From: Saccharopolyspora spinosa NRRL 18395
GTDB lineage: Bacteria; Actinomycetota; Actinomycetes; Mycobacteriales; Pseudonocardiaceae
Assembly: GCF_000194155.1 (NCBI RefSeq)
Contig: NZ_GL877878.1
Coordinates: 1,833,654 to 1,897,653, forward strand
Direction of reading: 5' to 3'
Length of the DNA stretch: 64,000 bases
A program made the position numbers and the translations under genes. Below the pieces are notes generated by a model. It saw only the letters and a program-made list of their open reading frames with translations, had not been told where the DNA came from and searched no databases. Below are positions 6,279 to 53,841 of the stretch, in pieces. Position 1 is the stretch's first letter. The number at the start of each line of letters is the position of its first letter.

Positions 6279-6507
6279 TCAAACCGACAAAGAGGAGCCA
6301 TCACCACGCACTCGCCTCGACGGGATTTGTCGGTCTGTCGGTCCTCGCGGCCCTGGAACACGTCAGCAGCGTCCGGATGCAGCACAACTGCCGGGCGTTT
6401 TCCCGCGTTTCGGCGTCCTGCCGCGCTTCCGGCACCCAGACGCTGAGATCCGCCCTTGTGAGCACAGGCACAGCAATCCCGCACGGCGATGGCCGCGAAC
6501 AAAGAGT
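6279..6507 (+). other. Gap after rskA with possible decayed lipoprotein signal peptide
   Basis: There is no intact gene here. Just after rskA stands a good ribosome binding site (AAAGAGGAG, about 6290-6298) without a following start codon. One frame then reads LASTGFVGLSVLAALEHVSS, which looks like the hydrophobic part of a signal peptide. In mycobacteria and other actinomycetes a fasciclin-domain lipoprotein (MPT70/MPT83 type) often follows this sigma/anti-sigma pair, so this may be the stub of such a gene. This is inference from position and a short hydrophobic run. Confidence 0.3.
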
Positions 6508-7149
6508 ATGGAGGAAGATTATCCGGATCTGCGGATACTGATGTCTCGGGCAAGCGGAACGACCACCGTGTTGCTGGTGTTGCACGGGGGCAAAGCAGTC
6601 AGCCGATCCCCGGTGCGGCCGACCCAGCTGACCTACCGGCGAATGCTGCCGTTTGCCCGTACGGCGCACCGCGCGACGGCGCGCCTGGGGGCGGCGGTGT
6701 GGGTTCTGCGGAACCGCACGCAGGGCTGGAACGAGCCGATGCTCGACCCTGTCGCCGACGCCCGCTGGGCGCTGGGCATCATCCGCGCCACACACCCGAA
6801 CGCGCGCGTTGCCCTGATCGGCCATTCGATGGGGGCCCGCGTGGCGCTGCGCCTGGCCAGTGAGCCTGACGTCACCGCAGTGTGCGCGCTCGCGCCCTGG
6901 ACCATCGGCTCCGAACCGGTCAAGCACCTCCCGGGCCGGAGGGTTTGGATTGTGCACGGCGATCGGGACCGCATCACGCCGGCCGAATCCTCGCTCGTCT
7001 ACGCACGGCGGGCCAGGGAATCCGGCGCCGAGATCACGCGTCACGTCGTGGCGGGCTCGGGGCACGCGATGCTGCGCCGCGCCGGGCAGTGGCACCGCCA
7101 CGTGCGGCGCTTCGCGCTCACGTGCGCTGCCGAGAGGAGCCCGGCATGA
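6508..7149 (+). CDS. Small alpha/beta hydrolase
   Basis: A 213-residue protein starting at ATG 6508 with GGAGGA-like spacing upstream only weakly visible. The alpha/beta hydrolase fold is shown by the oxyanion segment VLLVLHGGKA, the nucleophile elbow GHSMGAR (Ser near 113), the acid-containing strand VWIVHGDRDRITPAES, and the catalytic His in GSGHAMLRR near the C-terminus. It probably cleaves an ester or thioester of a lipid or small molecule. The stop overlaps the ATG of the FAD-dependent enzyme (ATGA), so it belongs to the same lipid-linked operon. Confidence 0.82.
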   Translation: MEEDYPDLRILMSRASGTTTVLLVLHGGKAVSRSPVRPTQLTYRRMLPFARTAHRATARLGAAVWVLRNRTQGWNEPMLDPVADARWALGIIRATHPNARVALIGHSMGARVALRLASEPDVTAVCALAPWTIGSEPVKHLPGRRVWIVHGDRDRITPAESSLVYARRARESGAEITRHVVAGSGHAMLRRAGQWHRHVRRFALTCAAERSPA

Positions 7150-8411
7150 ACCGGGAGCGGATCGGGGTCATCGGGGCGGGAGTCTCGGGGCTCACGGCAG
7201 CGCATTTGCTGCAGAAGCGCTACGACGTGGTGCTGTTCGAGTCCGACGACCGCCTCGGCGGACACGCCCACACCCACAACCTGGTCGCCGAAGACGGCGA
7301 GCCGGTTGCCGTGGACAGCGGGTTCATCGTCCACAACGACCGCACCTACCCCCACCTACGTCGACTGTTCGGCGAACTCGGTGTGCACACACAGGAAACC
7401 GAGATGTCGATGAGCGTGCGCTGCGACGAGTGCGGCCTGGAATACGCCGGCGCCAAGCGATGGGACGGATTGTTCCCCCGGACCGCGAACCTGCGCAACC
7501 GCCGGTATCTGCGGATGCTGGCGCAGGTCCCGCGTTTCCATCGGGAGGCGAACCGGTTTCTCGACGCCGGACACCCACGCGAGGCAATGACGCTGGGCGC
7601 GTTCCTGGCCACAGGAGGCTATTCCGATTACTTCGTCGACCATTTCGCGCTACCGTTGGTGTCGGCGGTCTGGTCCACCGATGGGACGCGCAGCAGACAG
7701 TATCCGGTCCGGTACCTCTTCGAGTTCCTCCGCCACCACGGAATGCTGTCGATCGGCGGCTCTCCAACCTGGCGCACCGTGGTCGGCGGCTCCGGCGAGT
7801 ACGTCCGGCGGATCGCCCAGCGACTCCACGCAGTCCGTCGCGCGACCCCGGTGCGCTCGGTGCACCCCGCCGTCGGCAGCGTCCAGGTCCGCGACGCCTC
7901 CGATGCGGTACACGAACTCGACCGGGTCGTCATCGCCACACACGCCGACCAGGCATTGGGCCTTCTGGCCCACCCAACGCCACGGCAGCGCCAAGTATTG
8001 GGCGCGTTCACCTACTCCGAAAACGAGACCTGGCTGCACACCGACCCGTCTCCACTGCCCACGACCCGCGGAGCCCGGGCCTCGTGGAACTACCTCAAAA
8101 CATCGTGCTCGGCCGGTCCCGTGGGCGCGCGCGTCAGCTACGACCTGAACCGTTTGATGCGGTTGGCCGAACCCGCCGACTACATCGTCACGCTCAACGC
8201 CACCGAGCACGTCGCCCCCGACCAGATCCTGACCAAGATGACCTACCGACACCCCGTTTACACCCCGGAATCCGTTGCAGCGCAACGTGAGTTACCCAGC
8301 ATCGGAGATGAGCGAGTGCAGTTCGCCGGCGCCTACCACGGGTGGGGCTTTCACGAGGACGGGTGCGCATCCGGGGTGCGCGCCGCCGCCGCGTTCGGAG
8401 CCGGGTGGTGA
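7146..8411 (+). CDS. FAD-dependent oxidoreductase, amine-oxidase-like (Rv0449c-like)
   Basis: A 421-residue flavoprotein. The dinucleotide-binding motif IGVIGAGVSGLTAAHLL is at the extreme N-terminus, followed by VVLFESDDRLGGHAHT and the family sequence FIVHNDRTYPHLRRLF. The C-terminus has the FAD-contacting segment FAGAYHGWGFHEDGCASG. Proteins of this branch occur next to CFA-like methyltransferases and DUF1365 proteins and are believed to act on modified fatty acids (desaturase-like or furan fatty acid steps); this is family knowledge and not shown here. It overlaps both neighbours by 4 nt (ATGA with the hydrolase, GTGA with DUF1365). Confidence 0.88.
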   Translation: MNRERIGVIGAGVSGLTAAHLLQKRYDVVLFESDDRLGGHAHTHNLVAEDGEPVAVDSGFIVHNDRTYPHLRRLFGELGVHTQETEMSMSVRCDECGLEYAGAKRWDGLFPRTANLRNRRYLRMLAQVPRFHREANRFLDAGHPREAMTLGAFLATGGYSDYFVDHFALPLVSAVWSTDGTRSRQYPVRYLFEFLRHHGMLSIGGSPTWRTVVGGSGEYVRRIAQRLHAVRRATPVRSVHPAVGSVQVRDASDAVHELDRVVIATHADQALGLLAHPTPRQRQVLGAFTYSENETWLHTDPSPLPTTRGARASWNYLKTSCSAGPVGARVSYDLNRLMRLAEPADYIVTLNATEHVAPDQILTKMTYRHPVYTPESVAAQRELPSIGDERVQFAGAYHGWGFHEDGCASGVRAAAAFGAGW

Positions 8412-38435: not shown

Positions 38436-39641
38436 ATGACCAGATTTTCCATCGCATACGTACCATCCGACACCGAGTTTTTGGTGAGTGACGGAGACTT
38501 TTCCGCGCTGGAAATTCGCAACAGCGGCAATGGTAGCGGATTCCACTACTTCTTTGACACCCGAACAAACCGGCTCATAACTGATTTCGTTTTGGAAGAC
38601 CGTCCGCAGGTCGCCACCTTATGCCAGGTTACCCTTATCAAAAAGGACGATGAGTACTCGCCGCGAATACGACTGTGGAAGAAAGACAAGACGAAGGTCG
38701 GCAAGAAGGTCGTTGAGCACAAAGTCCCTGAGACCGAGCTGACTAAAATCATAAAGGCAACAGTAGATACGGGAGAGGCTTATCGGAATTTCTGGAAGGT
38801 CATCCATTTCCTGCAAAGCTTCTCAGAGGTATCACTTCCGGACAATAACTTTCGTGTCGTCACTGACGATCGAGCGCAACTGGCCAAGAGCTTCGAAGGC
38901 AAGGACAAGCAGACCATCCTCGAAGCAGTACGGATCGCAATCGGTGGCTCGATCACCGAAGAAGATCTACGCATGATGAGTAACAGGAAAGCCCAACTTG
39001 GGGTATTCGAGAAGCTCCTGAACGATGCAGACTTCTTTGAGAGTGAACAGAAACGTCTAGAAAAGAAGCCCGAGGCTATCTGGCAACACTTCTTTGAGTC
39101 GAACCCTTGGATTTTCGGATACGGCCTGCACCTCATTGCATGCGAACCTCTAGACGAGAAAAAGATGGAGCGCATAACCACAGGCGCGAATATCTTTACC
39201 GGAGCCGGCAAGCGGAGTGATGCGGTCATGCGATCAAAAGGCTACATCAGCAGCCTGGCATTCTGCGAGATTAAGACGCACAAAACTCCCTTGCTAGAAA
39301 AACTAGCGTACCGCCCTCCAGACGTGTATCAAGCCTCCAAAGAGCTTAGCGGAGGCCTATCACAGGTACAGAAGACCGTGAGCAAGGCCCTTCTCCTTAT
39401 ATCCAACCAACTACACGAACTCTACGAGGACGACGGCACCCCGACGGGGATCCAAGTCTCGACCACAAAGCCTCGACAGGTTTTAGTCATCGGACATCTT
39501 AATGAGCTGACACAAAACGGGAGGGTCAATCCCGAAAAGCTGACGTCTTTTGAGCTCTACCGGAATTCGATCCAAGATGTTGAAGTCATCACTTTCGATG
39601 AGCTATATGAACGAGCCTGCTTCATCGTTCGCGATAGCTGA
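38436..39641 (+). CDS. sduA: Shedu (SduA, DUF4263) anti-phage nuclease
   Basis: A 401-residue protein. The N-terminal ~190 residues are a variable, probably sensing part. The C-terminal DUF4263 domain is a PD-(D/E)XK-type nuclease: IWQHFFESNPWIFGYGL (about 212-228), then Asp262 in GKRSDAV, E278-I-K280 in FCEIKTHKTPLL and Gln310 in LSQVQKTV, which fit the active-site residues of Shedu. Shedu alone is enough for phage defence in the known cases. GC content and codon choice are clearly lower than in the flanking genes, indicating transfer. It converges with a HEPN gene 22 nt away. Confidence 0.88.
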   Translation: MTRFSIAYVPSDTEFLVSDGDFSALEIRNSGNGSGFHYFFDTRTNRLITDFVLEDRPQVATLCQVTLIKKDDEYSPRIRLWKKDKTKVGKKVVEHKVPETELTKIIKATVDTGEAYRNFWKVIHFLQSFSEVSLPDNNFRVVTDDRAQLAKSFEGKDKQTILEAVRIAIGGSITEEDLRMMSNRKAQLGVFEKLLNDADFFESEQKRLEKKPEAIWQHFFESNPWIFGYGLHLIACEPLDEKKMERITTGANIFTGAGKRSDAVMRSKGYISSLAFCEIKTHKTPLLEKLAYRPPDVYQASKELSGGLSQVQKTVSKALLLISNQLHELYEDDGTPTGIQVSTTKPRQVLVIGHLNELTQNGRVNPEKLTSFELYRNSIQDVEVITFDELYERACFIVRDS

Positions 39642-39663: not shown

Positions 39664-41310
39664 TCACCCTCCCATAAGGAGCCTGTTGCTACGCTCGTCA
39701 CCGGTCTTGCATTCCGTTAGAAGTTCCAGCCGAGAGGTGAACAGCACGCGTAGAGAGTCGACGGCTACCTCCAGGGCCCACTGAGACTTCGGCACCAACT
39801 TTTGGTCGGATGGCATCTTATTCCCGTGCACCACGTCACTACGCATGTCGTACAACTTGGACAGCTCACTACGAAGCACAGATCGCTTCTCCGACGTGTC
39901 TTCCAGAAGCCACGCTATAGCTCCCGACACCCGTAGCGTAGGCTCACCTCTCCTTGAACCGAGAAGGTTTTCCCACGCAATGACAGCGTCCATGAGGACG
40001 TCTGCGAAGTCGCGGCGCTCGGCCGCAGCTCGCAATGTGCGCCGGATCGCAACATCGATGTACTTAGTACGATGCGCCTCGACTGCAATGGCAAAGTCTC
40101 GCCATTTGCTCGCGGCAGCTTCGTCCAATTGCTTAGGCATAAAACTTCGACTCATGCGAGGATCGCTCCAGCCCACGCCGTAGCCGTGCGCGAGCGGGTC
40201 ATGGACATAGCGCCAGGTTGGCAGAACCGTAATCGGCTCACTCGCGTTGAAGTCTTGAGATAGAAGAGCTCCGAGTTGCACGTTTTCTATTAGTCGCTGA
40301 ACCTGGTCGAACGCACGAAGATCTTGGGGCCACTCGTCTCCGGGCTCAAATTGACGCATGCGAACCCGATAGTCGATTTTTGTATCGAGTACCACATCAC
40401 CACTGTAGTCAATGGAAACATTGACACCATCAGACCCGGTGCCTTGCAACTGTCCTTCAATACCGCCAGGAACGAGTGGTCGGTCTCGATCATCGGTCTT
40501 CCTGAGTATGCCCCACCCAAGATCAATGGGCTGATCTACCAGCAGGCGCACTCCAGTGAACGCCACTCGGACGGGAACCTCGACATGCCGACCATCGAGC
40601 GCATCTCGAACAATTGTAAGCTGCATGAGCGCGGCCTCAACATGCTCATCAACAGAAGGATGTCCGGGCTTAGCAGTGTTCGCCGCTCGCCAGCCGGCAC
40701 CAATCAACATTTCGGCAAACATGATGAGCTGTACTCCGCCGCCTTGGCCAGTACTCCGCAGCAACGATCCGTGTCGACCCGAGTTCTCGTCCTCCGCTTG
40801 GAACAGCTTCGCAAGGACTTCATCAACCATGACTGCCGCCTTGAAACGTTGTCGAAGCGGATTCTGATATACCGACACGGTTGAACTGTTCGGAAAGGGA
40901 TCAGCGTCAGTCGGAAGGAGGTAGAGTGGGTACACATCGCGAACAAGTTGAGCCAGAATGTCCTCAAGCGATCCACTACTTACAAGTGCCGCGCCCTCAC
41001 CTGTAGCGATTCCCCTGATCACATTGACCAACGTCGTATGGAACGGCTCTTGATATATGCCCAGAATGTGCGACAGGTTCAGACGGCGCAAGCTCAGATT
41101 ATCATCGCCCCGCGAGCCATGAAGAACGATGTGTAGCTGAAGCAGAGCTTGCGTTTGCTGTAGTGTTCCAAACTCATCGTTAGGGCCGACGAGCCATTGG
41201 TCAATTTCATCCTCGGTGGCCCCAAGTTCGTAGGCAAGAAACGGCCTGCCGAGCGCCTCAAGCAGAAGAGGTTTAACTACGGGAGGCAAGGACGGCAGCT
41301 CGGCACTCAT
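39664..41310 (-). CDS. Large protein with C-terminal Apea-like HEPN domain
   Basis: A 548-residue protein with no membrane segments. Most of it is unrecognised. Near the C-terminus LMDAVIAWENLLGSRRGEP, ISGAIAWLLED-like packing and LYDMRSDVVHGN form a HEPN module; Arg490 and His495 give the R-x4-H RNase motif. HEPN proteins of this sort act as RNases in phage defence or in toxin systems. The gene is convergent with Shedu, shares its lower GC, and so belongs to the same acquired block. A TATAAT box lies 7 nt before the ATG, so the transcript has almost no leader. Confidence 0.72.
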   Translation of the reverse strand: MSAELPSLPPVVKPLLLEALGRPFLAYELGATEDEIDQWLVGPNDEFGTLQQTQALLQLHIVLHGSRGDDNLSLRRLNLSHILGIYQEPFHTTLVNVIRGIATGEGAALVSSGSLEDILAQLVRDVYPLYLLPTDADPFPNSSTVSVYQNPLRQRFKAAVMVDEVLAKLFQAEDENSGRHGSLLRSTGQGGGVQLIMFAEMLIGAGWRAANTAKPGHPSVDEHVEAALMQLTIVRDALDGRHVEVPVRVAFTGVRLLVDQPIDLGWGILRKTDDRDRPLVPGGIEGQLQGTGSDGVNVSIDYSGDVVLDTKIDYRVRMRQFEPGDEWPQDLRAFDQVQRLIENVQLGALLSQDFNASEPITVLPTWRYVHDPLAHGYGVGWSDPRMSRSFMPKQLDEAAASKWRDFAIAVEAHRTKYIDVAIRRTLRAAAERRDFADVLMDAVIAWENLLGSRRGEPTLRVSGAIAWLLEDTSEKRSVLRSELSKLYDMRSDVVHGNKMPSDQKLVPKSQWALEVAVDSLRVLFTSRLELLTECKTGDERSNRLLMGG

Positions 41311-41515: not shown

Positions 41516-41755
41516 GTGCGCGCCGAGTTTCTTGGCAAAGACCCCGAGTCCACCGAGGGTGCATCCCCTACGCTGTTCGCCACCGACCGGACCGACCGCG
41601 TCACCTACATCGCTCAGGGCTGGAAGGTGACCGACCCGCAGGTGCTCGCCGACGTCGGCCCGGTGCCCGACCACGAGACCCTGATCGAGATCCCCGAGGA
41701 AGTGCTGAAGTTCTACGCTCGCCGGTACGCCGAGGAGAAGGGAACGGACAACTGA
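41516..41755 (+). CDS. Small hypothetical protein, first gene of the radical SAM operon
   Basis: A 79-residue protein from GTG 41516 with AAGGAGG upstream. It contains PTLFATDRTDRVTYIAQGWK and VPDHETLIEIPEEVLKFYAR. I do not know the family. It ends inside the start of the DUF6879 gene (CTGA overlap). In actinomycetes, small acidic proteins of this sort often accompany XRE/DUF5753 regulators and DUF6879 proteins, so a regulatory role is likely. Confidence 0.7.
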   Translation: MRAEFLGKDPESTEGASPTLFATDRTDRVTYIAQGWKVTDPQVLADVGPVPDHETLIEIPEEVLKFYARRYAEEKGTDN

Positions 41756-42288
41756 CCTTCATCGAGCCAGGCCCGGAGTTCGCCAAGCTCTTCGAGACCT
41801 TCGAGCACACGGCCTACCGGCTGGAGACGCGCGACCAGTACAACATCCCTCGTGAAGCCGAACCGCTCCGCAAGTTCCTCGACGGGGAGCCGGACGTCTC
41901 GTACCACGAGGGCTGGTCGAACATGGTCCGCCAAGCGACGGCCGAAGGGCGCCGCTTCTCGCGCGTACGGGTGGTGACCTTCCCGCTGACCGACTACACC
42001 CGCTTCGCCATGTGGGTCGCGGGCTACACGCGCGAAGCGGGCGACGACATCCGCTACATCACCCGCGAGCAGGCAGCCGGCCTGCCGAATTACGACTACT
42101 GGCTGTTCGACTCCCGCAAGCTGCTCAAGATGCGCTTTACCGACGACGACCAGTTCCTCGGCGCGGAGGTCATCGAAGACCCGGCCGAGATCGTTCAGCA
42201 CAACTACTGGCGTGACGTGGCTCAGCACCACGCCATCGAGCGAGATGAGTTTGTCGCCAAGTATGAGCAACGGGACGACCGGCGTTGA
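41752..42288 (+). CDS. DUF6879 family protein, apparently CTG-started
   Basis: About 178 residues. The homologous family N-terminus (TFIEPGPEFAKLFETFEHTA) begins right after the upstream stop. No ATG, GTG or TTG is in frame there; CTG 41752 overlaps the stop (CTGA) and has AAGGGA 8 nt upstream. The next ATG (41923) would remove 57 conserved residues. The middle has FSRVRVVTFPLTDYTRFAMW and GDDIRYITREQA, as in DUF6879. These proteins pair with XRE/DUF5753 regulators; their biochemical role is unknown. Confidence 0.72.
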   Translation: MTFIEPGPEFAKLFETFEHTAYRLETRDQYNIPREAEPLRKFLDGEPDVSYHEGWSNMVRQATAEGRRFSRVRVVTFPLTDYTRFAMWVAGYTREAGDDIRYITREQAAGLPNYDYWLFDSRKLLKMRFTDDDQFLGAEVIEDPAEIVQHNYWRDVAQHHAIERDEFVAKYEQRDDRR

Positions 42289-43132
42289 CGAAGCGCGCAA
42301 CGCGCTGGGCAAACGACTCCGCGAGCTACGGGTAGCCGCCAAGCTATCCGGCAAAGAGCTCGCGGAGTCGTTGTCATGGGTGGGCTCGAAAGTCTCGAAG
42401 ATCGAGAACGGCAAGCAGACGCCGACCGATGACGACATCAAGGACTGGACGAGAGCCACCAAGTCGGAAGATCAGACGGCCAGCCTTCTCGCCGCGCTTC
42501 ATAACCTTGAGCTTCAGCACGCCGAGTGGCAGCGAGTGCTCAAGGCAGGCATGAAGTCCCACCAGCTCACCCTCTCGCAGCTGGACGAACAGACCAAGTT
42601 CTACCGCGGCTTCGAGAACACGGTCATTCCTGGGCTGACGCAGACGCCCGAGTACGCTCGTGCCCGCTTCGCGCAGGTCGTCATGGTGCACCGGGTGCCC
42701 AACGACATCAACGAGGCCGTAAAGGTCCGAATGCAACGTCAGGAGATGCTGTACCGGCCTGACAAGCGCTTCCACTTCGTGATCACCGAGGCCGCGCTCC
42801 GCTACCGGCTGGTCTCGCCGGAGATCATGATCGGCCAGCTTGACCGCCTGATGGCGATGACCTCCATGCGCAATGTCAAGCTCGGCATCATCGACTTCAA
42901 GACGCAGTACGTCACCGATCCCCGGCATGGCTTCTGGGTTTACGACGATCACCTTGTTCAGTTCGAGTCATACTCGGCCGAGATCAACCTTCGCCAGCCC
43001 CAGGAGATCGAGCTGTACACCGGCATCTTCGAGCACCTGGCCGCCGTTGCCAGCTACGGCAGCGAGGCTCGGGCGATCATCAGCCGCGTCATGCACGAAC
43101 TGGCCGGCGAGGCCGACGACGCTGGCTCCTAA
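42245..43132 (+). CDS. XRE family regulator with DUF5753 (Scr1-type) domain
   Basis: About 295 residues from ATG 42245 (ATG 42263 is also possible); it overlaps the DUF6879 gene by 44 nt. The HTH is LGKRLRELRVAAKLSGKELA with ESLSWVGSKVSKIENG at the N-terminus. The DUF5753 domain follows: IPGLTQTPEYARARF, FHFVITEAALRYRLV and FWVYDDHLVQFESYSAEINL. Proteins of this type in Streptomyces (WhiJ-like) work with small partner proteins and HATPase-like anti-sigma proteins to switch adjacent genes. It is the likely controller of this operon. Confidence 0.88.
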   Translation: MSLSPSMSNGTTGVDEARNALGKRLRELRVAAKLSGKELAESLSWVGSKVSKIENGKQTPTDDDIKDWTRATKSEDQTASLLAALHNLELQHAEWQRVLKAGMKSHQLTLSQLDEQTKFYRGFENTVIPGLTQTPEYARARFAQVVMVHRVPNDINEAVKVRMQRQEMLYRPDKRFHFVITEAALRYRLVSPEIMIGQLDRLMAMTSMRNVKLGIIDFKTQYVTDPRHGFWVYDDHLVQFESYSAEINLRQPQEIELYTGIFEHLAAVASYGSEARAIISRVMHELAGEADDAGS

Positions 43133-43255
43133 TTTCCGCAGGTCAGACTAGGCAAAGTTTTTCGAGAAAAACCGAGCAAATTTCTGGCGGCACTGTATCG
43201 GCCTGCTTACTCTCCAGAAGCGCCCACCCCGCTGACCTCGGAGAAGAGCCGCCTG

Positions 43256-44404
43256 ATGATCCCGGTGCCCCTGCTGACCACGGACCAGATCAACCGCTTG
43301 CCCGAGCGTGCCCGGGAGGTGGTGGAGTACCGCAAGAGCGGCCTGAGTCTGAACCACATCCAGGGCTGTTCGCTCGGGTGTGCCTATTGCATCCGGCACA
43401 CCTACGGCCTGTGGGACGAGAACCAGCCCGTCGCCCTCATGTCCGACGCCCAGGCCGTCGAAGAGCTGGTCAACCACCGCTACTTCCAGCCGCACGTCAC
43501 GCCGATCCAGGTGTTCAACCGGGCTACCGAGCCCTTCTTGCCGAAGGTCCGGCCGCACACCTTCGCCGTGCTCGAAGAACTTGACGCCCGCGAGCTGACC
43601 AACCACGTCCTCGTCATCACCCGGCACCAGCTCAAGCCGTACGACATCGACCGACTGAACCAGCTTCGACATCTCAAGGTGACGCTGCTGTTCACGTACT
43701 CGGGCATCGACAACAAGGAGGTCGAGCCGTATCCGTCGCACGTCGCGGCCGATTCGCTGAAGCTCATGAGCGCCCCGACCTTGAGGAGGTACCGGACCAT
43801 CCTCTACTGGCGGCCGCTCGTGCCGGGACTCAACGACACCGACGACCACTTGGCCGCGGCGCACGAACTCAGCAAGCACGCCGACGCCACGGTCTTCACC
43901 GGGCTGTTCTACCGCGACCAGATCGCCGAGTACTACAAGGCCAACGGTATTCCCGAGCCGTACGAGGACACCGCTCGCCGAAAGATCGTGCCTGAAACGC
44001 TTGAGGCCAGGGTGCTCGACACCTTCTCGAACTCCTCGGCCCTGTTCCGCAAGACCTCCTGCGCCGTGTCGTACGCCCACAACCTGCCGGACTACAACGG
44101 CCACTACGGCATCCGGGAGCTGTGCGACATCTGCCCGCTGTCCCAGCTCGAGCTCTGCGCCGGGGCTCATCGGGTGCCGACCGCCGAAGACGTACACCAA
44201 GTGGCCCGCGTGTTGCCCGAAGCCGACAAGCTTCAGGTCGTAGACATCAGTGAACGGGCCGCCGTCGTGTCCGGCCTGGAGACCGAGCAACCGCGCTACT
44301 TCCTTCAGCACGCGCTTGGCTTCCAGGTGCACGACCAGCGTCACCCGCACCACGCGCACCGGCACGGCCGCGCCGACATCGGATGGAAGGCAGTCTCAGC
44401 ATGA
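43256..44404 (+). CDS. Radical SAM enzyme with C-terminal cysteine cluster
   Basis: A 382-residue protein from ATG 43256 (GGAGAAGAG upstream). The radical SAM motif C-x3-C-x2-C is in GCSLGCAYCIRH near residue 40. The barrel continues with IQVFNRATEPFLPKVRPHTF, which resembles the SPL-like branch of DNA-acting radical SAM enzymes, and YWRPLVPGLND. Near the C-terminus four further cysteines (SCAVS, LCDICPLSQLELCAG) may bind a second iron-sulfur cluster. It generates a 5'-deoxyadenosyl radical; the substrate is unknown. A 123-nt gap with a small hairpin (43157-43172) precedes it, so a second promoter may start here. The stop overlaps the exonuclease ATG. Confidence 0.85.
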   Translation: MIPVPLLTTDQINRLPERAREVVEYRKSGLSLNHIQGCSLGCAYCIRHTYGLWDENQPVALMSDAQAVEELVNHRYFQPHVTPIQVFNRATEPFLPKVRPHTFAVLEELDARELTNHVLVITRHQLKPYDIDRLNQLRHLKVTLLFTYSGIDNKEVEPYPSHVAADSLKLMSAPTLRRYRTILYWRPLVPGLNDTDDHLAAAHELSKHADATVFTGLFYRDQIAEYYKANGIPEPYEDTARRKIVPETLEARVLDTFSNSSALFRKTSCAVSYAHNLPDYNGHYGIRELCDICPLSQLELCAGAHRVPTAEDVHQVARVLPEADKLQVVDISERAAVVSGLETEQPRYFLQHALGFQVHDQRHPHHAHRHGRADIGWKAVSA

Positions 44405-44979
44405 CGCACTGGACCAAGTTGAACTACGTCGTCGTGGACGTCGAGGGCAACGGCCAGCAGCCGCCGGACCTCGTGGAGCTGGCCGCGGTGCCGATCGTTG
44501 ACGGGATCATCGGCGAGCCGAAGAGCTGGCTGGTTCGTCCCGACCAGCCGATCACGCACTTCGCCAAGAGGATTCACGGGATCACCAACGAGAAGGTGGC
44601 CGACTCGCCGGTCTTCGCCTACATCGAAGCGGACGTGCTCAAGGCGCTGGACGCCTCGGCCCTGATCGCGCACAACGCCCATGTCGATGTCGGTGTTCTT
44701 CAGCGCAAGCTCGGTGACTGGGAGTGTCCCGAGGTGTTCGACACGCTCAAGCTCGCCCGGCGCCTGCTGCCCGGAAGGAAGACGTACAAGCTCGGATCGC
44801 TTGTCGAAGAGTTCGAGCTTGATCACGGCCTCGACGGTGAAGACCGGCCGCACCGCGCCACGTACGACGCCATCGTGACAGCCCGGCTGTTCGTTCATCT
44901 CGCAGGCCGGCGGAGCGTCGAAGAACTCAGGGATCAGCCGACAGGGGGTGATCGTGATGACGAGCCAGCTCTTTTCTAG
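44401..44979 (+). CDS. DEDDh 3'-5' exonuclease (DnaQ-like)
   Basis: A 192-residue single-domain nuclease. All catalytic residues are visible: Asp13 and Glu15 in VVVDVEGNG, Asp96 in AHNAHVDVGVL, His151 and Asp156 in PHRATYDAIVTA. It removes nucleotides from the 3' end of DNA or RNA. It overlaps the radical SAM gene by 4 nt and the aldo/keto reductase gene by 23 nt. A free-standing exonuclease in this position suggests that the pathway touches nucleic acid or nucleotides. Confidence 0.88.
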   Translation: MTHWTKLNYVVVDVEGNGQQPPDLVELAAVPIVDGIIGEPKSWLVRPDQPITHFAKRIHGITNEKVADSPVFAYIEADVLKALDASALIAHNAHVDVGVLQRKLGDWECPEVFDTLKLARRLLPGRKTYKLGSLVEEFELDHGLDGEDRPHRATYDAIVTARLFVHLAGRRSVEELRDQPTGGDRDDEPALF

Positions 44980-45823
44980 CGGCAGGCGCATCGGCTTCGG
45001 CTCCATGCAGCTCACCGGCCCTGGCCATTGGGCCGCACCGGACAACCCGGACCAGGCCATGCAGGTACTCCGCGATGCGGTCGACGCAGGCGTGACACAC
45101 ATCGACACGGCCGACGCCTACGGCCCGTTCACCGCAGAGAAGTACATCCGCAAGGCGTTGCACCCTTACCGCGACGGCTTGGTCATCGCCACCAAGGGCG
45201 GGCTCACTCGTCAAGGTCCCGACCGGTGGGCACCGTGTGGGCGGCCGGAGTACCTGCGCCAGTGCGTCGAGATGAGTCTCCGGCGGCTCCAGGTCGAACG
45301 GATCGACCTGTACTACCTCCACCGCATCGACCCGGCCGTCGCGATGGAAGATCAGCTCGCTGTTCTACGGGACATGCAAGTTGAAGGAAAGATCCACCAC
45401 ATCGGACTGTCCAAGGTGGACGTCGGTCAGATTCGCAAGGCCAGCGAGCTGGTTGACGTCGTGGCCGTCCAGAACAAGTACAGCGCGAGCAACCGGCTAT
45501 TCGAGGAAGTTCTCCGATACTGCGACGACGCCGGTATCGCCTTCGTGCCGTACGCCCCGCTGGCATCCGGTCGGCTCGCAGAGCCTCACGGTGTGTTGCG
45601 CGGACTGGCTACCCAGTACGACGCGACACCTGCCCAGCTCGCGCTGGCGTGGCTGTTGCACCGGTCCCCGGTGATGATGCCGATCCCTGGAACCAGTAGC
45701 AGTGCGCGCCTTCACGAGAACCTGGCAGCCCATCAGATCGACCTCACCCGCGAAGACATGGCCGCTATCGAAGAGGCGGCCACCAAGACTGCGCGGTCAG
45801 AAGTCGGTAGGGGGCAAGGATGA
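44957..45823 (+). CDS. Aldo/keto reductase
   Basis: About 288 residues from ATG 44957, which has AGGGGG 8 nt upstream; GTG 44948 is possible. The catalytic tetrad is visible: Asp and Tyr in HIDTADAYG, Lys in VIATKGGL, and His in LYYLHRID. The NADPH pocket is at the C-terminal end (PIPGTSSSARLHENL). It reduces an aldehyde or ketone. The stop overlaps the kinase ATG (ATGA). Confidence 0.9.
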   Translation: MTSQLFSSGRRIGFGSMQLTGPGHWAAPDNPDQAMQVLRDAVDAGVTHIDTADAYGPFTAEKYIRKALHPYRDGLVIATKGGLTRQGPDRWAPCGRPEYLRQCVEMSLRRLQVERIDLYYLHRIDPAVAMEDQLAVLRDMQVEGKIHHIGLSKVDVGQIRKASELVDVVAVQNKYSASNRLFEEVLRYCDDAGIAFVPYAPLASGRLAEPHGVLRGLATQYDATPAQLALAWLLHRSPVMMPIPGTSSSARLHENLAAHQIDLTREDMAAIEEAATKTARSEVGRGQG

Positions 45824-46470
45824 ACCTCCGGACCTCTTCTGACCGCGGGCGCGGCTTGTTCGTCAGCGTCGACGGACCAGGCGGCGCGGGCAAGACCACG
45901 ATCGTTCGGCACTTGGCCCAGCTACTCCTTACCGAAGGCCACCAGGTCCATGTGACCGCCGAACCGTCGAGCGGGCCTATCGGGAAGCTGGCGTGCGACT
46001 TGACGCCGACCGTCACCGGTCACGCGCTCGCCTGCTTGTACGCGGCCGACCGGTACCACCACGTTGAGACGGAGATCAAGCCGCTCCTGAAGAACGGCCA
46101 CCTCGTCATCTCTGATCGGTACGTGGCGTCCGGCCTGGTTGTCCAGCGGTTCGACGGTGTTGACCCCGTGTTCTTGTGGCAGCTCAACGAGGAGGCTGAA
46201 CGGCCGGACCTCGTGGTCATCCTCGAAGCAGACCCGGATGTGATCGCTGAGCGGCTGGAGGCGCGCGGACCGCACAACCGCTTCCAGCACACACCCGGCA
46301 GCAGCCACACCGAGGCCGTCTTCTACAGGCAGGCAACGGAAACGTTGGAAGAAGCGGGCTTCGCCGTGCTCGCCCTGGACTGTTCCAGTCGGCCACCCGA
46401 GCAGTCCGCGGCGATCATCGCTGGCGAGCTGACGGCGCTTCTCGCTCCGAGCGAAGCGGTCAGCGGATGA
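45820..46470 (+). CDS. dTMP kinase-like nucleotide kinase
   Basis: A 216-residue P-loop kinase: Walker A DGPGGAGKTT (residues 18-27), the DRY-type motif SDRYVASGLVVQRFDG, and the lid EARGPHNRFQ. The family phosphorylates dTMP to dTDP. It is unlikely to be the only copy in the cell, so here it may have a specialised substrate such as a modified nucleotide. ATG overlaps the reductase stop, and the stop overlaps the next ATG (ATGA on both sides). Confidence 0.85.
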   Translation: MNLRTSSDRGRGLFVSVDGPGGAGKTTIVRHLAQLLLTEGHQVHVTAEPSSGPIGKLACDLTPTVTGHALACLYAADRYHHVETEIKPLLKNGHLVISDRYVASGLVVQRFDGVDPVFLWQLNEEAERPDLVVILEADPDVIAERLEARGPHNRFQHTPGSSHTEAVFYRQATETLEEAGFAVLALDCSSRPPEQSAAIIAGELTALLAPSEAVSG

Positions 46471-46823
46471 ACCCGCCGATCAACAACGAGGATGCCCTTC
46501 GTCGTTACCCGGAGCTTCAGCAGCTCGTCACCGTTCGAGAAGTCGGCTGGGTCTTCCGCCCGATCCAGGACCAGGACGGCCCGCTGGAAGGCATCGCAGG
46601 AAGCTTCAGCCGCAACCAGTACACGGACGCCATCTTCATCTTCGACCGCACCAACGTCAGCGCGGCCCGCGTGCTCGATGACGCTTACGGCGGCGGGTGC
46701 GTGTGGTCGAAGGAAGGTTCCGACCTTCAAGAGGTCGTCTACGAGCTGCTTGGACTGCCTGAGCCAGGTGATCCGGGAGCGCCCTATCTCGTCAAGCGCT
46801 CCAGCCTCCTGTGGACCCCGTGA
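46467..46823 (+). CDS. Hypothetical protein of the radical SAM operon
   Basis: A 118-residue protein. It contains VGWVFRPIQDQDGPLEGIAG, YTDAIFIFDRTNVSAARVLD and SDLQEVVYELLGLPEPG. It is soluble, with no known motif. Both ends overlap neighbours by 1-4 nt, so it is a true member of the operon. Function unknown. Confidence 0.75.
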   Translation: MNPPINNEDALRRYPELQQLVTVREVGWVFRPIQDQDGPLEGIAGSFSRNQYTDAIFIFDRTNVSAARVLDDAYGGGCVWSKEGSDLQEVVYELLGLPEPGDPGAPYLVKRSSLLWTP

Positions 46824-47428
46824 TGACCGCCGTCGTTCAAGGTGAGCTGCCCGTCCAGAACGAGGTTCCCCGGATGCGTGAAGAGCCTCAGTTCTTGGCG
46901 GCGCTCGACCTGGTGGCGCTTCCTACGGCCGTGCCCGTTGCCCGGATGTTCATCGCTGACACCCTGCGTCGGTGGCACGCCTTGTTCATCGAGGACCACA
47001 TGGAGGCCGTCGCCGTCGAGCTGGTATCGCTCAGCGTCCAGGCCACCAGCCCAGCCGAGGATACGAGCTGGACCGACATCACCGAACTCAACCCGATTAC
47101 GCTCCGTCTGCTGGGCTACCAGCGGCACATCGTCTTCGAGGTCACCGACGCCCACCCTGAAGCCTTTGAGATCACCGAGGACACCGAGCTGCGTGAAGAC
47201 AGCGGCATCGGCCTGGTCGACGGGCTCGCGAACAGGTGGGGATCATTCGTCGCGCCGCGGGGCCGAGTGATCTGGGCTGAGCTGGCCGTATACGAGCGCA
47301 CGAAGGCAGGGCTGCCCAAGCGCGACCGCAAGCCGACGCCTTACCCGCGAGGTTCCATCTCCCCGCCGGCCTCAGCCGCAGATGTCAAGCTTCTCCGCCG
47401 AGTCCGAGACGGCCTAGAAAAATTGTAG
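46823..47428 (+). CDS. HATPase-like (RsbW-type) ATP-binding protein
   Basis: About 201 residues from ATG 46823 (overlaps the upstream stop; GTG 46811 also open). The layout is that of actinomycete anti-sigma-type ATP-binding proteins: ALPTAVPVARMFIADTLRRW, N-box position VAVELVSLSVQATS, HIVFEVTDAHPEAF and SGIGLVDGLANRWGSF. The N-box Asn is replaced by Ser (ELVSLSV where ELVTNAV is usual), so ATP or Mg binding may be weakened. Such proteins accompany WhiJ-like XRE/DUF5753 regulators. It is the last gene of the operon. Confidence 0.72.
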   Translation: MTAVVQGELPVQNEVPRMREEPQFLAALDLVALPTAVPVARMFIADTLRRWHALFIEDHMEAVAVELVSLSVQATSPAEDTSWTDITELNPITLRLLGYQRHIVFEVTDAHPEAFEITEDTELREDSGIGLVDGLANRWGSFVAPRGRVIWAELAVYERTKAGLPKRDRKPTPYPRGSISPPASAADVKLLRRVRDGLEKL

Positions 47429-48472: not shown

Positions 48473-49632
48473 GGGTCAAGCAGCAAAAAGACATAGATTA
48501 CGTGATCGTCTACCACTTCAACCGAGTCTTTCGCAACACCGTTGACGCCGCGATCACCAAGCGTGATCTCAGCAAATTCGGAACTCGCATTGTCTCAACC
48601 ATCCTCGATATGGGCGAAGGACCCGAAAGCGCGATGGTCGAGTCAATCATCCACGCCGTCGACCAATACCAGTCACAAGCCAGTGGAGCAGACATCCGCT
48701 ACAAGATGGGCCAGAAAGTCAAGAACGGCGGCACGATCAGCACGCCTCCGCTCGGCTACCTCAACGTTCGCGAAGCCAAGCCCGAAGGCGGCGAGATTCG
48801 CACTATCGCTGTGGACCCGGAGCGCGGCCCGCTCATCACCAAAGGTATCGAGCTGTTCGCCAGCGGCCAGTACACCGCACAAGAAGTGCTCGACCAGATC
48901 AACGCCGCTGGCCTACGTACCCGAGGCGACCGTCGCCACTCACCGAAACCCCTCTCTCTGAGCCAGTTTTACCTGATCCTCAGTGACCGCTACTACTGCG
49001 GATTCGTCACCTACGATGACCAGGAGTACCCCGGCCGACACCAGGCGCTCATCACCGAGGAGATCTACGACCGCGTTCAGCGCGTCCTCGCCCTTCGCCG
49101 GGGCGGCGGCACCCGCGAGCGTCACCACCATCACTGGCTCAAAGGCTTGCTCTGGTGTCACCGCTGCGGCCACCGGATGCTCATCGCCAGAGGTAAGGGC
49201 AACGGGGGTATCTACTTCTACTTCTTCTGTCGGGGTCGCCAGAAGCACCTCTGCGACTTGCCGTACCTCAGTGTCGCCAAGATCGAAGCCGCAGTAGACA
49301 AGCATCTCGGCACAGTACGGCTCACTGACACCTTTCAGGCCACAGTGCGTCACCAACTTGCCGACGCTCTGTTGTTAGAGCAGGGCCACATGAGTGCGTT
49401 CAAGAAGCGTCTTGGTGCTCGGCTGGACGAGCTGGACACCAAGGAAGACGGCCTGCTCGATCTGCTCGATGACCCCGAATGGCCGCGCCAGAAGATCAAG
49501 AAGAAGCTCACGGAGATCGAACGGGAACGCACCGAGGTCCAAACCCAGCTTGCCGACACGACGAGCAGGCTGGAAGAAGGGCAGCAGTTCTTCGCCGCAG
49601 CGCTCGCCCTCCTCGCTGATCCGCAGGGCTGA
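48473..49632 (+). pseudogene. Serine recombinase, copy 1, lacking the catalytic N-terminus
   Basis: From VKQQKDIDYVIVYHFNRV to the stop at 49632 this is the large serine recombinase family: end of the resolvase domain (FGTRIVSTILDMGEGPESAM), recombinase domain (MGQKVKNGGTISTPPLGYLN), zinc ribbon (LLWCHRCGHRM... CRGRQKHLC) and coiled-coil C-terminus (DELDTKEDGLLDLLDDPE). The first ~100 residues with the catalytic Ser are absent. The open frame runs back into the IS5 end, but this is a fusion. 48473-49445 is almost identical to 50241-51213; one difference is Ala versus Asp near 49360. Confidence 0.9.
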
Positions 49633-49649: not shown

Positions 49650-49853
49650 GGCCAGAGTTGCTCGCTGAAATTCCCCACTCGGGCGTGGTGGTTAGCGTAG
49701 CGGTTGCCGGGTGCCGGTGGTGGCTTGGCGGAGGGTGTCGGTGCGGGCTTGGGCCAGAGTTGCTCGCTGAAATTCCCCACTCGGGCGTGGTGGTTAGCGT
49801 AGCGGTTGCCGGGTGCCGGTGGTGGCTTGGCGGAGGGTGTCGGTGCGGGCTTG
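49650..49853. repeat. 102-bp exact tandem duplication (IS21 end)
   Basis: 49650-49751 and 49752-49853 are the same. Each contains TGCTCGCTGAAATTCCCCAC, the terminal repeat of the IS21 element, and the last codons of istB on the minus strand. Exactly two copies exist, with no spacers. Confidence 0.9.
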
Positions 49854-49932
49854 GTGGTCGCGTAGCCGGTAGGAGTCACCTTCGAGGGTGAGCACGACGG
49901 AGCGGTGCAGGAGTCGCTCGAGTAGGGGTGCG
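49854..49932 (-). pseudogene. 3' fragment of istB
   Basis: Translation gives LERLLHRSVVLTLEGDSYRL then RDHQARTDTLRQATTGTRQP (ending in the repeat before it), the proper C-terminus of IstB. It differs slightly from the other copy (VAPLLERL against VAAALLDRL), so it comes from a different IS21 copy or an end recombined with one. Confidence 0.7.
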
Positions 49933-50041: not shown

Positions 50042-51244
50042 GTGCTCTACCTCCGCGTGTCTACACCCAGTCAGGTCAATACCGACTATAACCCCGAAGG
50101 TATCTCGATTCCCGCTCAGCGTGAGGCAGGGAAGCGCAAAGCTGACTCGCTCGACGCGGAAATTGTCCATGAGTTCGTTGAGCCAGGCCGGACAGCAACA
50201 AGCATCGACAAACGACCTACCTTCCAGGAAATGCTCGCTTGGGTCAAGCAGCAAAAAGACATAGATTACGTGATCGTCTACCACTTCAACCGAGTCTTTC
50301 GCAACACCGTTGACGCCGCGATCACCAAGCGTGATCTCAGCAAATTCGGAACTCGCATTGTCTCAACCATCCTCGATATGGGCGAAGGACCCGAAAGCGC
50401 GATGGTCGAGTCAATCATCCACGCCGTCGACCAATACCAGTCACAAGCCAGTGGAGCAGACATCCGCTACAAGATGGGCCAGAAAGTCAAGAACGGCGGC
50501 ACGATCAGCACGCCTCCGCTCGGCTACCTCAACGTTCGCGAAGCCAAGCCCGAAGGCGGCGAGATTCGCACTATCGCTGTGGACCCGGAGCGCGGCCCGC
50601 TCATCACCAAAGGTATCGAGCTGTTCGCCAGCGGCCAGTACACCGCACAAGAAGTGCTCGACCAGATCAACGCCGCTGGCCTACGTACCCGAGGCGACCG
50701 TCGCCACTCACCGAAACCCCTCTCTCTGAGCCAGTTTTACCTGATCCTCAGTGACCGCTACTACTGCGGATTCGTCACCTACGATGACCAGGAGTACCCC
50801 GGCCGACACCAGGCGCTCATCACCGAGGAGATCTACGACCGCGTTCAGCGCGTCCTCGCCCTTCGCCGGGGCGGCGGCACCCGCGAGCGTCACCACCATC
50901 ACTGGCTCAAAGGCTTGCTCTGGTGTCACCGCTGCGGCCACCGGATGCTCATCGCCAGAGGTAAGGGCAACGGGGGTATCTACTTCTACTTCTTCTGTCG
51001 GGGTCGCCAGAAGCACCTCTGCGACTTGCCGTACCTCAGTGTCGCCAAGATCGAAGCCGCAGTAGACAAGCATCTCGGCACAGTACGGCTCACTGACACC
51101 TTTCAGGCCACAGTGCGTCACCAACTTGACGACGCTCTGTTGTTAGAGCAGGGCCACATGAGTGCGTTCAAGAAGCGTCTTGGTGCTCGGCTGGACGAGC
51201 TGGACACCAAGGAGGTGCGGGCTTGGTGGTCGCGTAGCCGGTAG
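50042..51244 (+). CDS. Serine recombinase, copy 2, with catalytic domain but truncated C-terminus
   Basis: GTG 50042 starts VLYLRVSTPSQ, where the Ser of RVS is the catalytic nucleophile. The frame is open back to 49928, through 26 nt identical to the IS5 right end, so the native start may have been lost. The resolvase domain, recombinase domain and zinc ribbon are complete to DELDTKE, after which the frame runs for 10 residues into istB sequence (VRAWWSRSR). The coiled-coil end present in copy 1 is missing. A full gene can be rebuilt from the N-part of copy 2 and the C-part of copy 1. Confidence 0.85.
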   Translation: MLYLRVSTPSQVNTDYNPEGISIPAQREAGKRKADSLDAEIVHEFVEPGRTATSIDKRPTFQEMLAWVKQQKDIDYVIVYHFNRVFRNTVDAAITKRDLSKFGTRIVSTILDMGEGPESAMVESIIHAVDQYQSQASGADIRYKMGQKVKNGGTISTPPLGYLNVREAKPEGGEIRTIAVDPERGPLITKGIELFASGQYTAQEVLDQINAAGLRTRGDRRHSPKPLSLSQFYLILSDRYYCGFVTYDDQEYPGRHQALITEEIYDRVQRVLALRRGGGTRERHHHHWLKGLLWCHRCGHRMLIARGKGNGGIYFYFFCRGRQKHLCDLPYLSVAKIEAAVDKHLGTVRLTDTFQATVRHQLDDALLLEQGHMSAFKKRLGARLDELDTKEVRAWWSRSR

Positions 51245-52037: not shown

Positions 52038-53537
52038 TTATTTGTCGCCGGCCGGGGCGGCCGGGGGCGGGGTGGTGCGGGCGGCGGCTGCCGCGGCGTA
52101 GCGGGCGAGATCGATGACGACCTCCGCGCCGGCGGCGCCGGGCGTGGTCGGGCTGCCGCTGGTGCGGGTGCGCAAGGTGTCGGCGGCGGCGCGGGCGGCC
52201 GGTCCGGGTGGGATGCGCTGCTTGCTACGGTGCGGCCGAGCGGAGGTGGCGGCGGTGATGGCGGCGTGTTCGAGGGCGAGCACGTGTCCGTGGTCGCGGA
52301 CCATGGCGCCGGCTCCCTCGGGTGCCAGGGTGTGGCGGGCGATGACGGTTCCGGTCTCGGTGGCGATGTCGAGGTGCCCGGCGCCGAGCCGGAGGGTGAC
52401 GGTGACGGTGGCTCCGGCCAGTTCCGGGGCGACGCTGTAGCGGTTGCCGCGGAAGGACACCAGTGCCTGGGCCGACACCACTCGGGTCACCGACAGGGTG
52501 GCCGGGAACGGCGCGGCCGGCGCGACGGTGGCTCCGGCCAGTTCCGGGGCGACGCTGTAGCGGTTGCCGCGGAAGGACACCAGTGCCTGGGCCGACACCA
52601 CTCGGGTCACCGACAGGGTGGCCGGGAACGGCGCGGCCGGCGCTGGACGCAGCGGCTCGGCCGCCGCGACGGTGACCACCGAAGCCTTCCCGTCGGAGGT
52701 GGGACGCAGCCGGGTGTCGCCGCGCTTGGCGCACCAGGTATCGAGCACCTGCTGGGCCTGCTCGGGCGTGACGTCGTCGGGCAGGGTGCGCCAGAAGCGT
52801 TGCGCAGCAACGTGATTGGCCTTCTCCACCACGCCTTTGCGGTTGCCTCGTCGCGGTGGACACGCCCGCACCTGCACACCGTAATGCTTGGCGACAGCGG
52901 CAAAGGAGGCCTGCACCCGCCCGGTGCCGGGGTTGATCACGGTGGCCATCCGGTCGAACCGCCACACATCCGTGCACCCGCCCAGCGCGCGGGTGACCCG
53001 GTCCAGGGCGTCGATCAGGTGCGGCTGATCCATCGACGGACACAGCCTGCCGCGCCACCGGCTCGAGTGCGACAGCGCCCCCACCAGCAGGTGGGCGCAT
53101 CTGCCCCACCCCCAGTGCGCGGGCGGGTCGGGCAGATCGACCCAGTCCCACTGGGTCTCCTCACCGGGCGGGTGCTCGATCACCGCGACCGCCCGCCCCG
53201 TCGCCGGTCGGCACGGCTCACACGCCGGGCGCAGGCTACGGATGCGCAGCTGGCGGGTCAGCGTCGGATACGAGAACCCGTAGCCCAGCTCGAGCAGCTC
53301 GTCGTAGAGCGTGGTGGCCCACAAGTGCGGGTCCTCGGCCAGCCGCGCCGCGCAGTAGATCGCGAACGGCTCGAACGGATCCGGCGTCGTGCAGGCACGA
53401 AACCCGGGTTGACGGTCGCCGTTGAGATAGGCGCGGATGGTCTTACGGTCCCGGCCCAGGTGGCGGGCGATCGCGGAGATCGTCCAGCCCCGGGCGGACA
53501 GGGCGTGCGCGTCGATGTCTTCCTCCCGTGTGAGCAT
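52038..53537 (-). CDS. istA: IS21 transposase IstA with internal 40-residue duplication
   Basis: 499 residues from ATG 53537 (GAAGGAG upstream). HTH: GWTISAIARHLGRDRKTIRA; DDE core: GEETQWDWVDLP, DVWRFDRMATVINPGTG and RKGVVEKANHVAAQRFW. In the C-terminal beta domain a block of 40 residues (LVSFRGNRYSVAPELAGATV in its second half) occurs twice in tandem, due to a 120-bp DNA duplication, where the family has one. The duplicated protein may not fold well; the frame is kept. Confidence 0.88.
   Translation of the reverse strand: MLTREEDIDAHALSARGWTISAIARHLGRDRKTIRAYLNGDRQPGFRACTTPDPFEPFAIYCAARLAEDPHLWATTLYDELLELGYGFSYPTLTRQLRIRSLRPACEPCRPATGRAVAVIEHPPGEETQWDWVDLPDPPAHWGWGRCAHLLVGALSHSSRWRGRLCPSMDQPHLIDALDRVTRALGGCTDVWRFDRMATVINPGTGRVQASFAAVAKHYGVQVRACPPRRGNRKGVVEKANHVAAQRFWRTLPDDVTPEQAQQVLDTWCAKRGDTRLRPTSDGKASVVTVAAAEPLRPAPAAPFPATLSVTRVVSAQALVSFRGNRYSVAPELAGATVAPAAPFPATLSVTRVVSAQALVSFRGNRYSVAPELAGATVTVTLRLGAGHLDIATETGTVIARHTLAPEGAGAMVRDHGHVLALEHAAITAATSARPHRSKQRIPPGPAARAAADTLRTRTSGSPTTPGAAGAEVVIDLARYAAAAAARTTPPPAAPAGDK
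52404..52643. repeat. 120-bp exact tandem duplication inside istA
   Basis: 52404-52523 and 52524-52643 are identical. 120 is a multiple of three, so the istA frame survives. Confidence 0.92.
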
Positions 53538-53545
53538 GGAGACGT

Positions 53546-53801
53546 GGGGCTCCTTCAAGCTGGTGAGTGGTCAGAGACCACCAGCCTTGAGGGAGCCCCG
53601 CCCGTCTCGGCGGAGCCACGCGGGTGGGGAATTTCAGTGAGCAGGTCCGGGGAGATTCACCTGAGCGCCATCAGGGGCTCCTTCAAGCTGGTGAGTGGTC
53701 AGAGACCACCAGCCTTGAGGGAGCCCCGCCCGTCTCGGCGGAGCCACGCGGGTGGGGAATTTCAGTGAGCAGGTCCGGGGAGATTCACCTGAGCGCCATC
53801 A
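53546..53801. repeat. 128-bp exact tandem duplication at the IS21 end
   Basis: 53546-53673 and 53674-53801 are identical. Each contains a hairpin GGCTCC...GGAGCC, GAGTGGTCAGAGACCACC and the IS21 terminal repeat GTGGGGAATTTCAGTGAGCA. Confidence 0.92.
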
Positions 53802-53841
53802 GGGCTTCTACCGACGCGGCAGTGACGGAGTGAAGCGCGCT

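Follow-up and report, generated by a model that had tools for sequence, protein, structure and literature searches.

The 64,000-nucleotide stretch of Saccharopolyspora spinosa NRRL 18395 analysed here (contig NZ_GL877878.1, positions 1,833,654 to 1,897,653; hereafter the window, with its own numbering) carries nine open reading frames (ORFs), all present on the + strand at 41516-47428, which encode among others a radical S-adenosylmethionine (SAM) enzyme, a 3'-5' exonuclease, an aldo/keto reductase (AKR) and a nucleotide kinase. The locus raises the question of whether such an assortment serves one pathway and, if so, what that pathway makes. Our comparison revealed a conserved, mobile radical SAM-exonuclease-kinase cassette, which is neither an artefact nor an ad hoc operon, and whose probable products are modified building blocks of DNA or RNA, toxic to viruses or rivals but not to the producer.

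Conservation of the cassette across genomes

One genome per species was scanned, and the best 80 of 117 stretches encoding radical SAM relatives (numbered loci, L) were analysed, with presence counted by profile search; clustering counts rest on a simple gene caller that may misplace or miss genes. An exonuclease gene lies beside the radical SAM gene, on the same strand, in 79 of the 80 loci (the exception being L054), and a kinase gene is found in 69, thymidylate-kinase-like in 36 and of the unrelated AAA_28 family in 33. Similarly, of 18 additional loci on plasmids and viral contigs, 17 have the exonuclease (Nostoc L102 lacks it) and 16 a kinase (L120 and L121 lack it), and the radical SAM-exonuclease pairing is kept down to 44% radical SAM identity (L121). 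The linkage of these two genes in relatives is far beyond chance. The original prediction had made its case depend on the genes being linked elsewhere, and the neighbourhood scan did not refute it: the radical SAM-exonuclease-kinase core is conserved across phyla.

Other members are less regular. Of the 80 loci, 28 have the AKR, 19 a thymidylate synthase (TS)-like protein and 20 a nucleoside diphosphate kinase (NDK); of the control genes, that for the small protein occurs in 34, the DUF6879 gene in 35 and an XRE gene in 45; the detachable regulators and the optional AKR weaken the case for the nine genes as originally predicted. Clustering found no family beyond the system, its regulators and a 201-aa (amino acid) regulator-like family in more than 8 of the 80 loci, so no common exporter was seen. 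In a 95-row radical SAM tree (L098, L057 and L110 were left out, as was one row by a length limit), 18 changes are counted in AKR presence, 7 in the upstream module and, if kinase-less rows are ignored, one in kinase type. As one kinase family replaces another in one slot, the kinase reaction is suggested to be what matters.

The hosts are mostly actinomycetes, together with Myxococcus and with metagenome-assembled genomes labelled Acidobacteriota, Nitrospirales and Obscuribacterales, labels that may be wrong. The radical SAM protein also matches 39 of 72,556 plasmid records, from Streptomyces, Nocardia, Roseibium/Labrenzia, Rhizobium, Sinorhizobium, Agrobacterium, Mesorhizobium, Gluconobacter and Nostoc, of which 12 Streptomyces rows are of a distant kind (25-27% identity) and three more are partial. 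Distribution close to the window is sporadic: five of 99 relatives of its genome carry a radical SAM copy at 79% identity or more, which in two of them is in two pieces, and 395 other genomes of the phylum gave one weak partial match. A second partial copy (71 codons, 63% identity; L016, L127) was observed elsewhere in one genome, at G000:C3:445821-446033, with an XRE-profile gene nearby. On a plasmid of Nocardia sp. NBC_01377 (L098), the annotation splits the radical SAM gene into two hypothetical proteins, so that it is probably interrupted, and shows the exonuclease, kinase and AKR genes intact. Among the matches listed from the open literature searched, beyond which other papers may exist, no description of this gene set was found, in agreement with the earlier statement that no described pathway is known to contain it.

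Two kinds of related loci were set apart. In L110, a plasmid locus of Streptomyces anthocyanicus, the same exonuclease-kinase-AKR genes follow a gene for a MurA-like protein, one for an aldolase and a radical SAM gene of 25% identity, and MurA-like genes are linked with nikkomycin-type chemistry. In comparison with L108, a glycosyltransferase-aldolase-MurA-like-divergent radical SAM block stands in place of TS-NDK-radical SAM; because the DNA on either side of the exchange is 95.2% and 93.8% identical and a remnant of the old radical SAM C-terminus is left, this block is a different cassette that was swapped in, and such chemistry was rejected for the present one. Likewise not assigned to this system were radical SAM relatives of 25-34% identity in genomes of the same family, as profiles found no such exonuclease or kinase around L122-L126. 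At L123, L125 and L126, members of this distant family (25-30% identity) lie beside one recurring gene set, some of which look by eye like epimerase, nucleotidyltransferase and NUDIX proteins.

Enzymes and control module in the window

The features of the locus are as follows.

41516..41755, +, small protein (79 aa) whose gene opens the control module (ORF; homologue in 34/80 related loci)
41752..42288, +, DUF6879 protein (Pfam PF21806, E 1.7e-52; CTG start assumed, first ATG at 41923)
42263..43132, +, XRE / DUF5753 regulator (Pfam HTH_31 and DUF5753, 1.9e-32)
43157..43185, no strand, predicted operator-like tandem palindromes GTTTTTCGAGAAAAAC and GAGCAAATTTCT in the gap between XRE and radical SAM genes
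43256..44404, +, radical SAM enzyme (closest in fold to spore photoproduct lyase; invariant four-Cys C-terminal cluster)
44401..44979, +, DEDDh 3'-5' exonuclease, ExoX / PolC-exo / epsilon-like (RNase_T, E 7.1e-23; ExoX 4fzx, E 6.9e-20)
44957..45823, +, AKR (Pfam, E 4.8e-71; in-frame GTG at 44948; nearest AKR13B2 and pyridoxine 4-dehydrogenase)
45820..46470, +, thymidylate-kinase-like nucleotide kinase (PF02223, E 2.4e-32; TIGR00041 above cut-off)
46467..46823, +, 118-aa protein (ORF; tblastn homologue in 8/80 loci)
46820..47428, +, 201-aa protein, regulator-like (PHROG 12354, E 1.6e-7; profile match in 16/80 loci)

The nine genes had been described as an overlapping operon forming one functional unit. 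Seven of the eight junctions do overlap, by 4 to 26 nt (or as many as 32 nt if the AKR starts at GTG), with the DUF6879 gene overlapping its upstream neighbour only when started from the CTG at 41752, but the eighth is a gap of 123 nt (43133-43255) between the XRE and radical SAM genes, so the locus is more aptly described as a regulatory module of three genes followed by an enzyme operon of six. Pfam matches bear out the family assignments made for DUF6879, the XRE/DUF5753 regulator, the exonuclease, the AKR and the thymidylate-kinase-like protein. Neither the 118-aa nor the 201-aa protein matches a family in Pfam, NCBIfam or PADLOC, and a 'HATPase-like' label given to the latter was not confirmed; its resemblance is to a PHROG named 'transcriptional regulator'.

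The radical SAM protein has a weak Pfam match, below the cut-off (E 0.0038), and its predicted model (pLDDT 90), compared with solved folds, contains the radical SAM barrel. Its only cysteines are at positions 38, 42, 45, 269, 290, 293 and 301; both the CxxxCxxC motif (C38, C42, C45) and the four C-terminal residues are invariant in 53/53 aligned sequences, which upholds the extra Cys cluster noted earlier, a site that may hold a second Fe-S cluster. An SPL-like barrel had also been proposed, and spore photoproduct lyase (SPL) is indeed the closest solved fold, at about 10% identity. The likeness does not extend to the hydrogen-donor cysteine, which we take to be the conserved C140 in the barrel, the residue mutated in SPL structures: no cysteine lies between C45 and C269 in the window protein, and none is invariant there in the 53 relatives, so that C140 is without evident counterpart, as judged from cysteine positions rather than a residue-level structural alignment. 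The enzyme differs from SPL further in the added C-terminal cluster and in its gene context. When PDB sequences were searched with the profile of the radical SAM protein, no solved relative was found (best E 0.15), and no viperin match was found at E <= 0.1 in NCBIfam and PADLOC, which presumably contain viperin models.

Residues that we take to be catalytic from the known roles in their families are kept in the partner enzymes. In relatives of the exonuclease these are D13 (96/96), E15 (96/97), H151 and D156 (both 97/97), with motif II reading AHNAHVD in the window and, among the matches listed, Asp retained in many relatives and Glu in a subset. The kinase scores 116.5 bits against the NCBIfam TIGR00041 cut-off of 83.25 and its P-loop and DRY motif are kept, as are D50, Y55, K80 and H122 of the AKR; the AAA_28 kinase found elsewhere gave no match in a PDB search. 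The Streptomyces-type layout adds the TS-like protein (C157, 26/26) and NDK (H148, 27/27). Among solved relatives, the one TS-like representative compared (L075) is nearest cytidine monophosphate (CMP) 5-hydroxymethylase (E 1.1e-74; thymidylate synthase, 9e-15), that is, MilA of mildiomycin; MilA is thus the closest likeness of a gene carried by 19/80 loci, but absent from this window. An HD protein, likewise absent from the window, stands beside the radical SAM and kinase genes in five of the eight alphaproteobacterial plasmid loci viewed; that of S. meliloti, the sole one compared, is related to 2o6i (2.4e-44) and SAMHD1 (7.5e-19).

Upstream, the XRE / DUF5753 regulator is presumably WhiJ-like, and the control module is generic, since DUF6879 has 8 copies in this genome. 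In the 35 XRE-radical SAM gaps of the window and 34 related loci with the same regulator module, a pattern of GAGnAA, 0-3 nt and TTnCT, chosen after inspecting the gaps, occurs in 20, against 0.06% of 3500 shuffled gaps, and sits 80-107 nt upstream of the radical SAM start; in the window it is represented by GTTTTTCGAGAAAAAC followed by GAGCAAATTTCT. Perfect palindromes with arms of at least 7 were found in 3/34 related gaps against 0/34 shuffled ones, and imperfect palindromes in 12/35 gaps against 14% of shuffles. The form of the element partly follows the regulator type: TTTCT is found in the window and the four closest regulator relatives (85-94% identical), and eight of the loci whose regulators are 61-62% identical have TTGCT; L027 and L032 are among the exceptions. 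The element fits a predicted operator that the XRE protein would read.

Genomic setting and mobility

On alphaproteobacterial plasmids the cassette lies among defence genes. Around seven plasmid loci, 89 flank proteins match 164 PADLOC families (E <= 1e-15), against 9 for 122 control proteins taken from seven regions elsewhere on these plasmids; these tallies count families rather than proteins, and several models can match one protein. This comparison does not include Nostoc (L102), Roseibium Sym1 (L107, whose context matches that of L099) or the plasmids of Nocardia and Streptomyces. Among the matches listed are Gabija, CBASS, Shedu, ThsB, dGTPase, RmrA, capP, IetA and LmuB. For example, the S. 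meliloti copy adjoins patatin, DncV-like and ThiF genes of CBASS type, the S. chiapasense and Rhizobium copies have Shedu and ABC-three-component genes nearby, and the A. vitis copy is accompanied by an ATPase-helicase pair (probably the Gabija match), an anti-phage dGTPase gene and a TIR gene.

Nine IMG/VR contigs carry relatives, and the flanks of six were scanned for phage context. In L118 a head maturation protease gene borders the cassette on one side and minor head, portal and terminase genes on the other; together with two further genes, one of which matches a PHROG of unknown function, the cassette occupies 5012-7949 in reverse orientation to the phage head module. Endolysin and tail genes are near the cassette in L121 and a portal gene in L116. 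No cassette match was found in 50,697 phage records.

In the window itself, a Shedu SduA anti-phage nuclease gene (38436-39641, +; PADLOC E 4e-160) lies approximately 1.9 kb upstream of the gene set, where the GC content is 52-53%, compared with about 65-68% beyond the island. A 548-aa protein (39664-41310, -) without Pfam or NCBIfam match has a C-terminal part that we take, by eye, to be HEPN-like. Downstream, a serine recombinase stretch (Pfam Resolvase/Recombinase) occurs twice, at 48473-49445 and 50241-51213, 99.9% identical over 973 bp, and exact tandem duplications were observed at 53546-53804, 52404-52643 and 49650-49854. The 14-base direct repeat of the tmRNA region was not found between 30001 and 53950.

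What the cassette may make

Viperin and the prokaryotic viperins, which make 3'-deoxy-3',4'-didehydro-nucleotides, share the radical SAM barrel with the present enzyme at superfamily level only, and an intracellular antiviral nucleotide is the use proposed here; prokaryotic viperins have a nucleotide-kinase partner. The viperin product ddhC is reported to be removed from RNA by a 3'-5' exonuclease (PMC9415739). By gene content, the nearest proven precedent would be Photorhabdus thmABC, and the cassette would, by this analogy, work like known nucleotide-analogue systems. The thmABC report describes a minimal cassette in varied surroundings, in which a radical SAM enzyme is joined by a kinase and a triphosphatase and which yields 4'-thiothymidine in E. 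coli; this product enters DNA and blocks replication, the triphosphatase ThmC alone confers resistance, and polymerases without 3'-5' proofreading incorporate 4'-thio-dTTP efficiently (PMC12691670). The common alphaproteobacterial version of our cassette, with radical SAM enzyme, exonuclease, AAA_28 kinase and SAMHD1-like HD protein, may be comparable in gene content, whereas the three thm genes include no exonuclease and their cluster is reported from gammaproteobacteria (PMC12691670).

We propose that the XRE/DUF5753, DUF6879 and small-protein module controls the enzyme operon via the palindromes at 43157-43185, and that upon a trigger, either infection or competition, the radical SAM enzyme would alter a (deoxy)ribonucleotide, some lineages perhaps first making a 5-hydroxymethyl pyrimidine nucleotide. 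The AKR, where present, would reduce a carbonyl intermediate, the thymidylate-kinase-like protein (elsewhere the AAA_28 kinase) would phosphorylate the analogue, and host or cassette NDK would make the triphosphate, which fast-copying phage polymerases would incorporate and then stall. By analogy with the thmABC and viperin-product precedents, the ExoX/epsilon-like exonuclease may be an antidote nuclease that clears the analogue from the host's own 3' ends, and the SAMHD1-like protein of many alphaproteobacterial versions an antidote dNTPase that would destroy the triphosphate. We favour phages as the target, since the cassette is found on plasmids and in prophages and no exporter recurs beside it.

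That the cassette makes a nucleotide analogue seems to us somewhat likelier than that it does not; an antiviral use of this analogue is a tentative assignment, which we would rate a little short of an even chance. The reading as a whole, a mobile nucleotide-analogue cassette that follows the logic of viperin and thmABC with a built-in cleaning nuclease, is put forward with similar reserve. A more specific version, in which a viperin-like immune cassette with a radical SAM enzyme of a new family, a swappable kinase and a dedicated DEDDh 'sanitiser' exonuclease is traded across phyla among actinomycetes, alphaproteobacterial plasmids, Myxococcus and prophages, is possible but doubtful. One result weighs against the antiviral use and keeps our confidence at this level: at 20 actinobacterial loci picked for long contigs, no defence enrichment was found, as 130 flank proteins match 14 families and 130 control proteins 41 (random samples from 233 and 306, respectively). 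The suggestion of a modified nucleotide or a phage-responsive system in the original prediction gains from the SAMHD1-like, NDK and CMP-hydroxymethylase-like partners and from the alphaproteobacterial defence islands, and loses by the actinobacterial flanks.

Among the alternatives, a secreted nucleoside antibiotic similar to 4'-thiothymidine, whose dephosphorylated product would harm competitors while the exonuclease and the SAMHD1-like protein provide self-resistance, appears unlikely, yet it fits the actinobacterial flanks and the relative of the mildiomycin CMP 5-hydroxymethylase in Streptomyces-type loci. Its precedent is again thmABC, a proven three-gene radical SAM-kinase-triphosphatase cluster with no transporter among the three genes (PMC12691670). 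In the present loci, clustering placed no possible exporter, nucleosidase or phosphatase family in more than 8/80, and the alphaproteobacterial copies in defence islands, as well as the copy inside a phage head module, speak for another use.

The SPL-like fold would suit DNA or nucleotide repair and recycling, in which a damaged pyrimidine would be handled by the radical SAM enzyme and set free by the exonuclease, and the nucleotide would re-enter the pool through the kinase. This we consider improbable, given the missing counterpart of C140 between C45 and C269 and a sporadic, island-borne distribution with a single weak partial match in the 395 other genomes of the phylum; repair also leaves the CMP-hydroxymethylase-like and SAMHD1-like partners unexplained.

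Base modification in phages typically involves a hydroxymethylase-like enzyme, a nucleotide kinase, an NDK and a radical SAM enzyme, and the cassette occurs on plasmids and on contigs with phage genes, so a modified dNTP might instead shield the mobile element's own DNA against restriction. Such hypermodification is very improbable in our view, as a 3'-5' exonuclease is unfit for the role, the phage records searched hold no match, and MilA is reported to prefer CMP, a ribonucleotide (PMC5175136). Finally, that unrelated genes without a shared pathway merely co-travel on a mobile island, as the mixed and matched regulators and the 18 AKR state changes might suggest, has next to no chance and is already contradicted by the conserved core, in which radical SAM enzyme and exonuclease stay together across phyla (79/80, and down to L121) and one kinase replaces another in the same slot.

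If the nucleotide-analogue reading is true, a radical SAM family without a sequence-detected solved relative would join the few enzymes that make natural nucleotide drugs, in a cassette that carries its own antidote nuclease and would connect immunity in bacteria with nucleoside antibiotics and the chemistry of antiviral drugs, with a three-gene core small enough for tests in a standard host.

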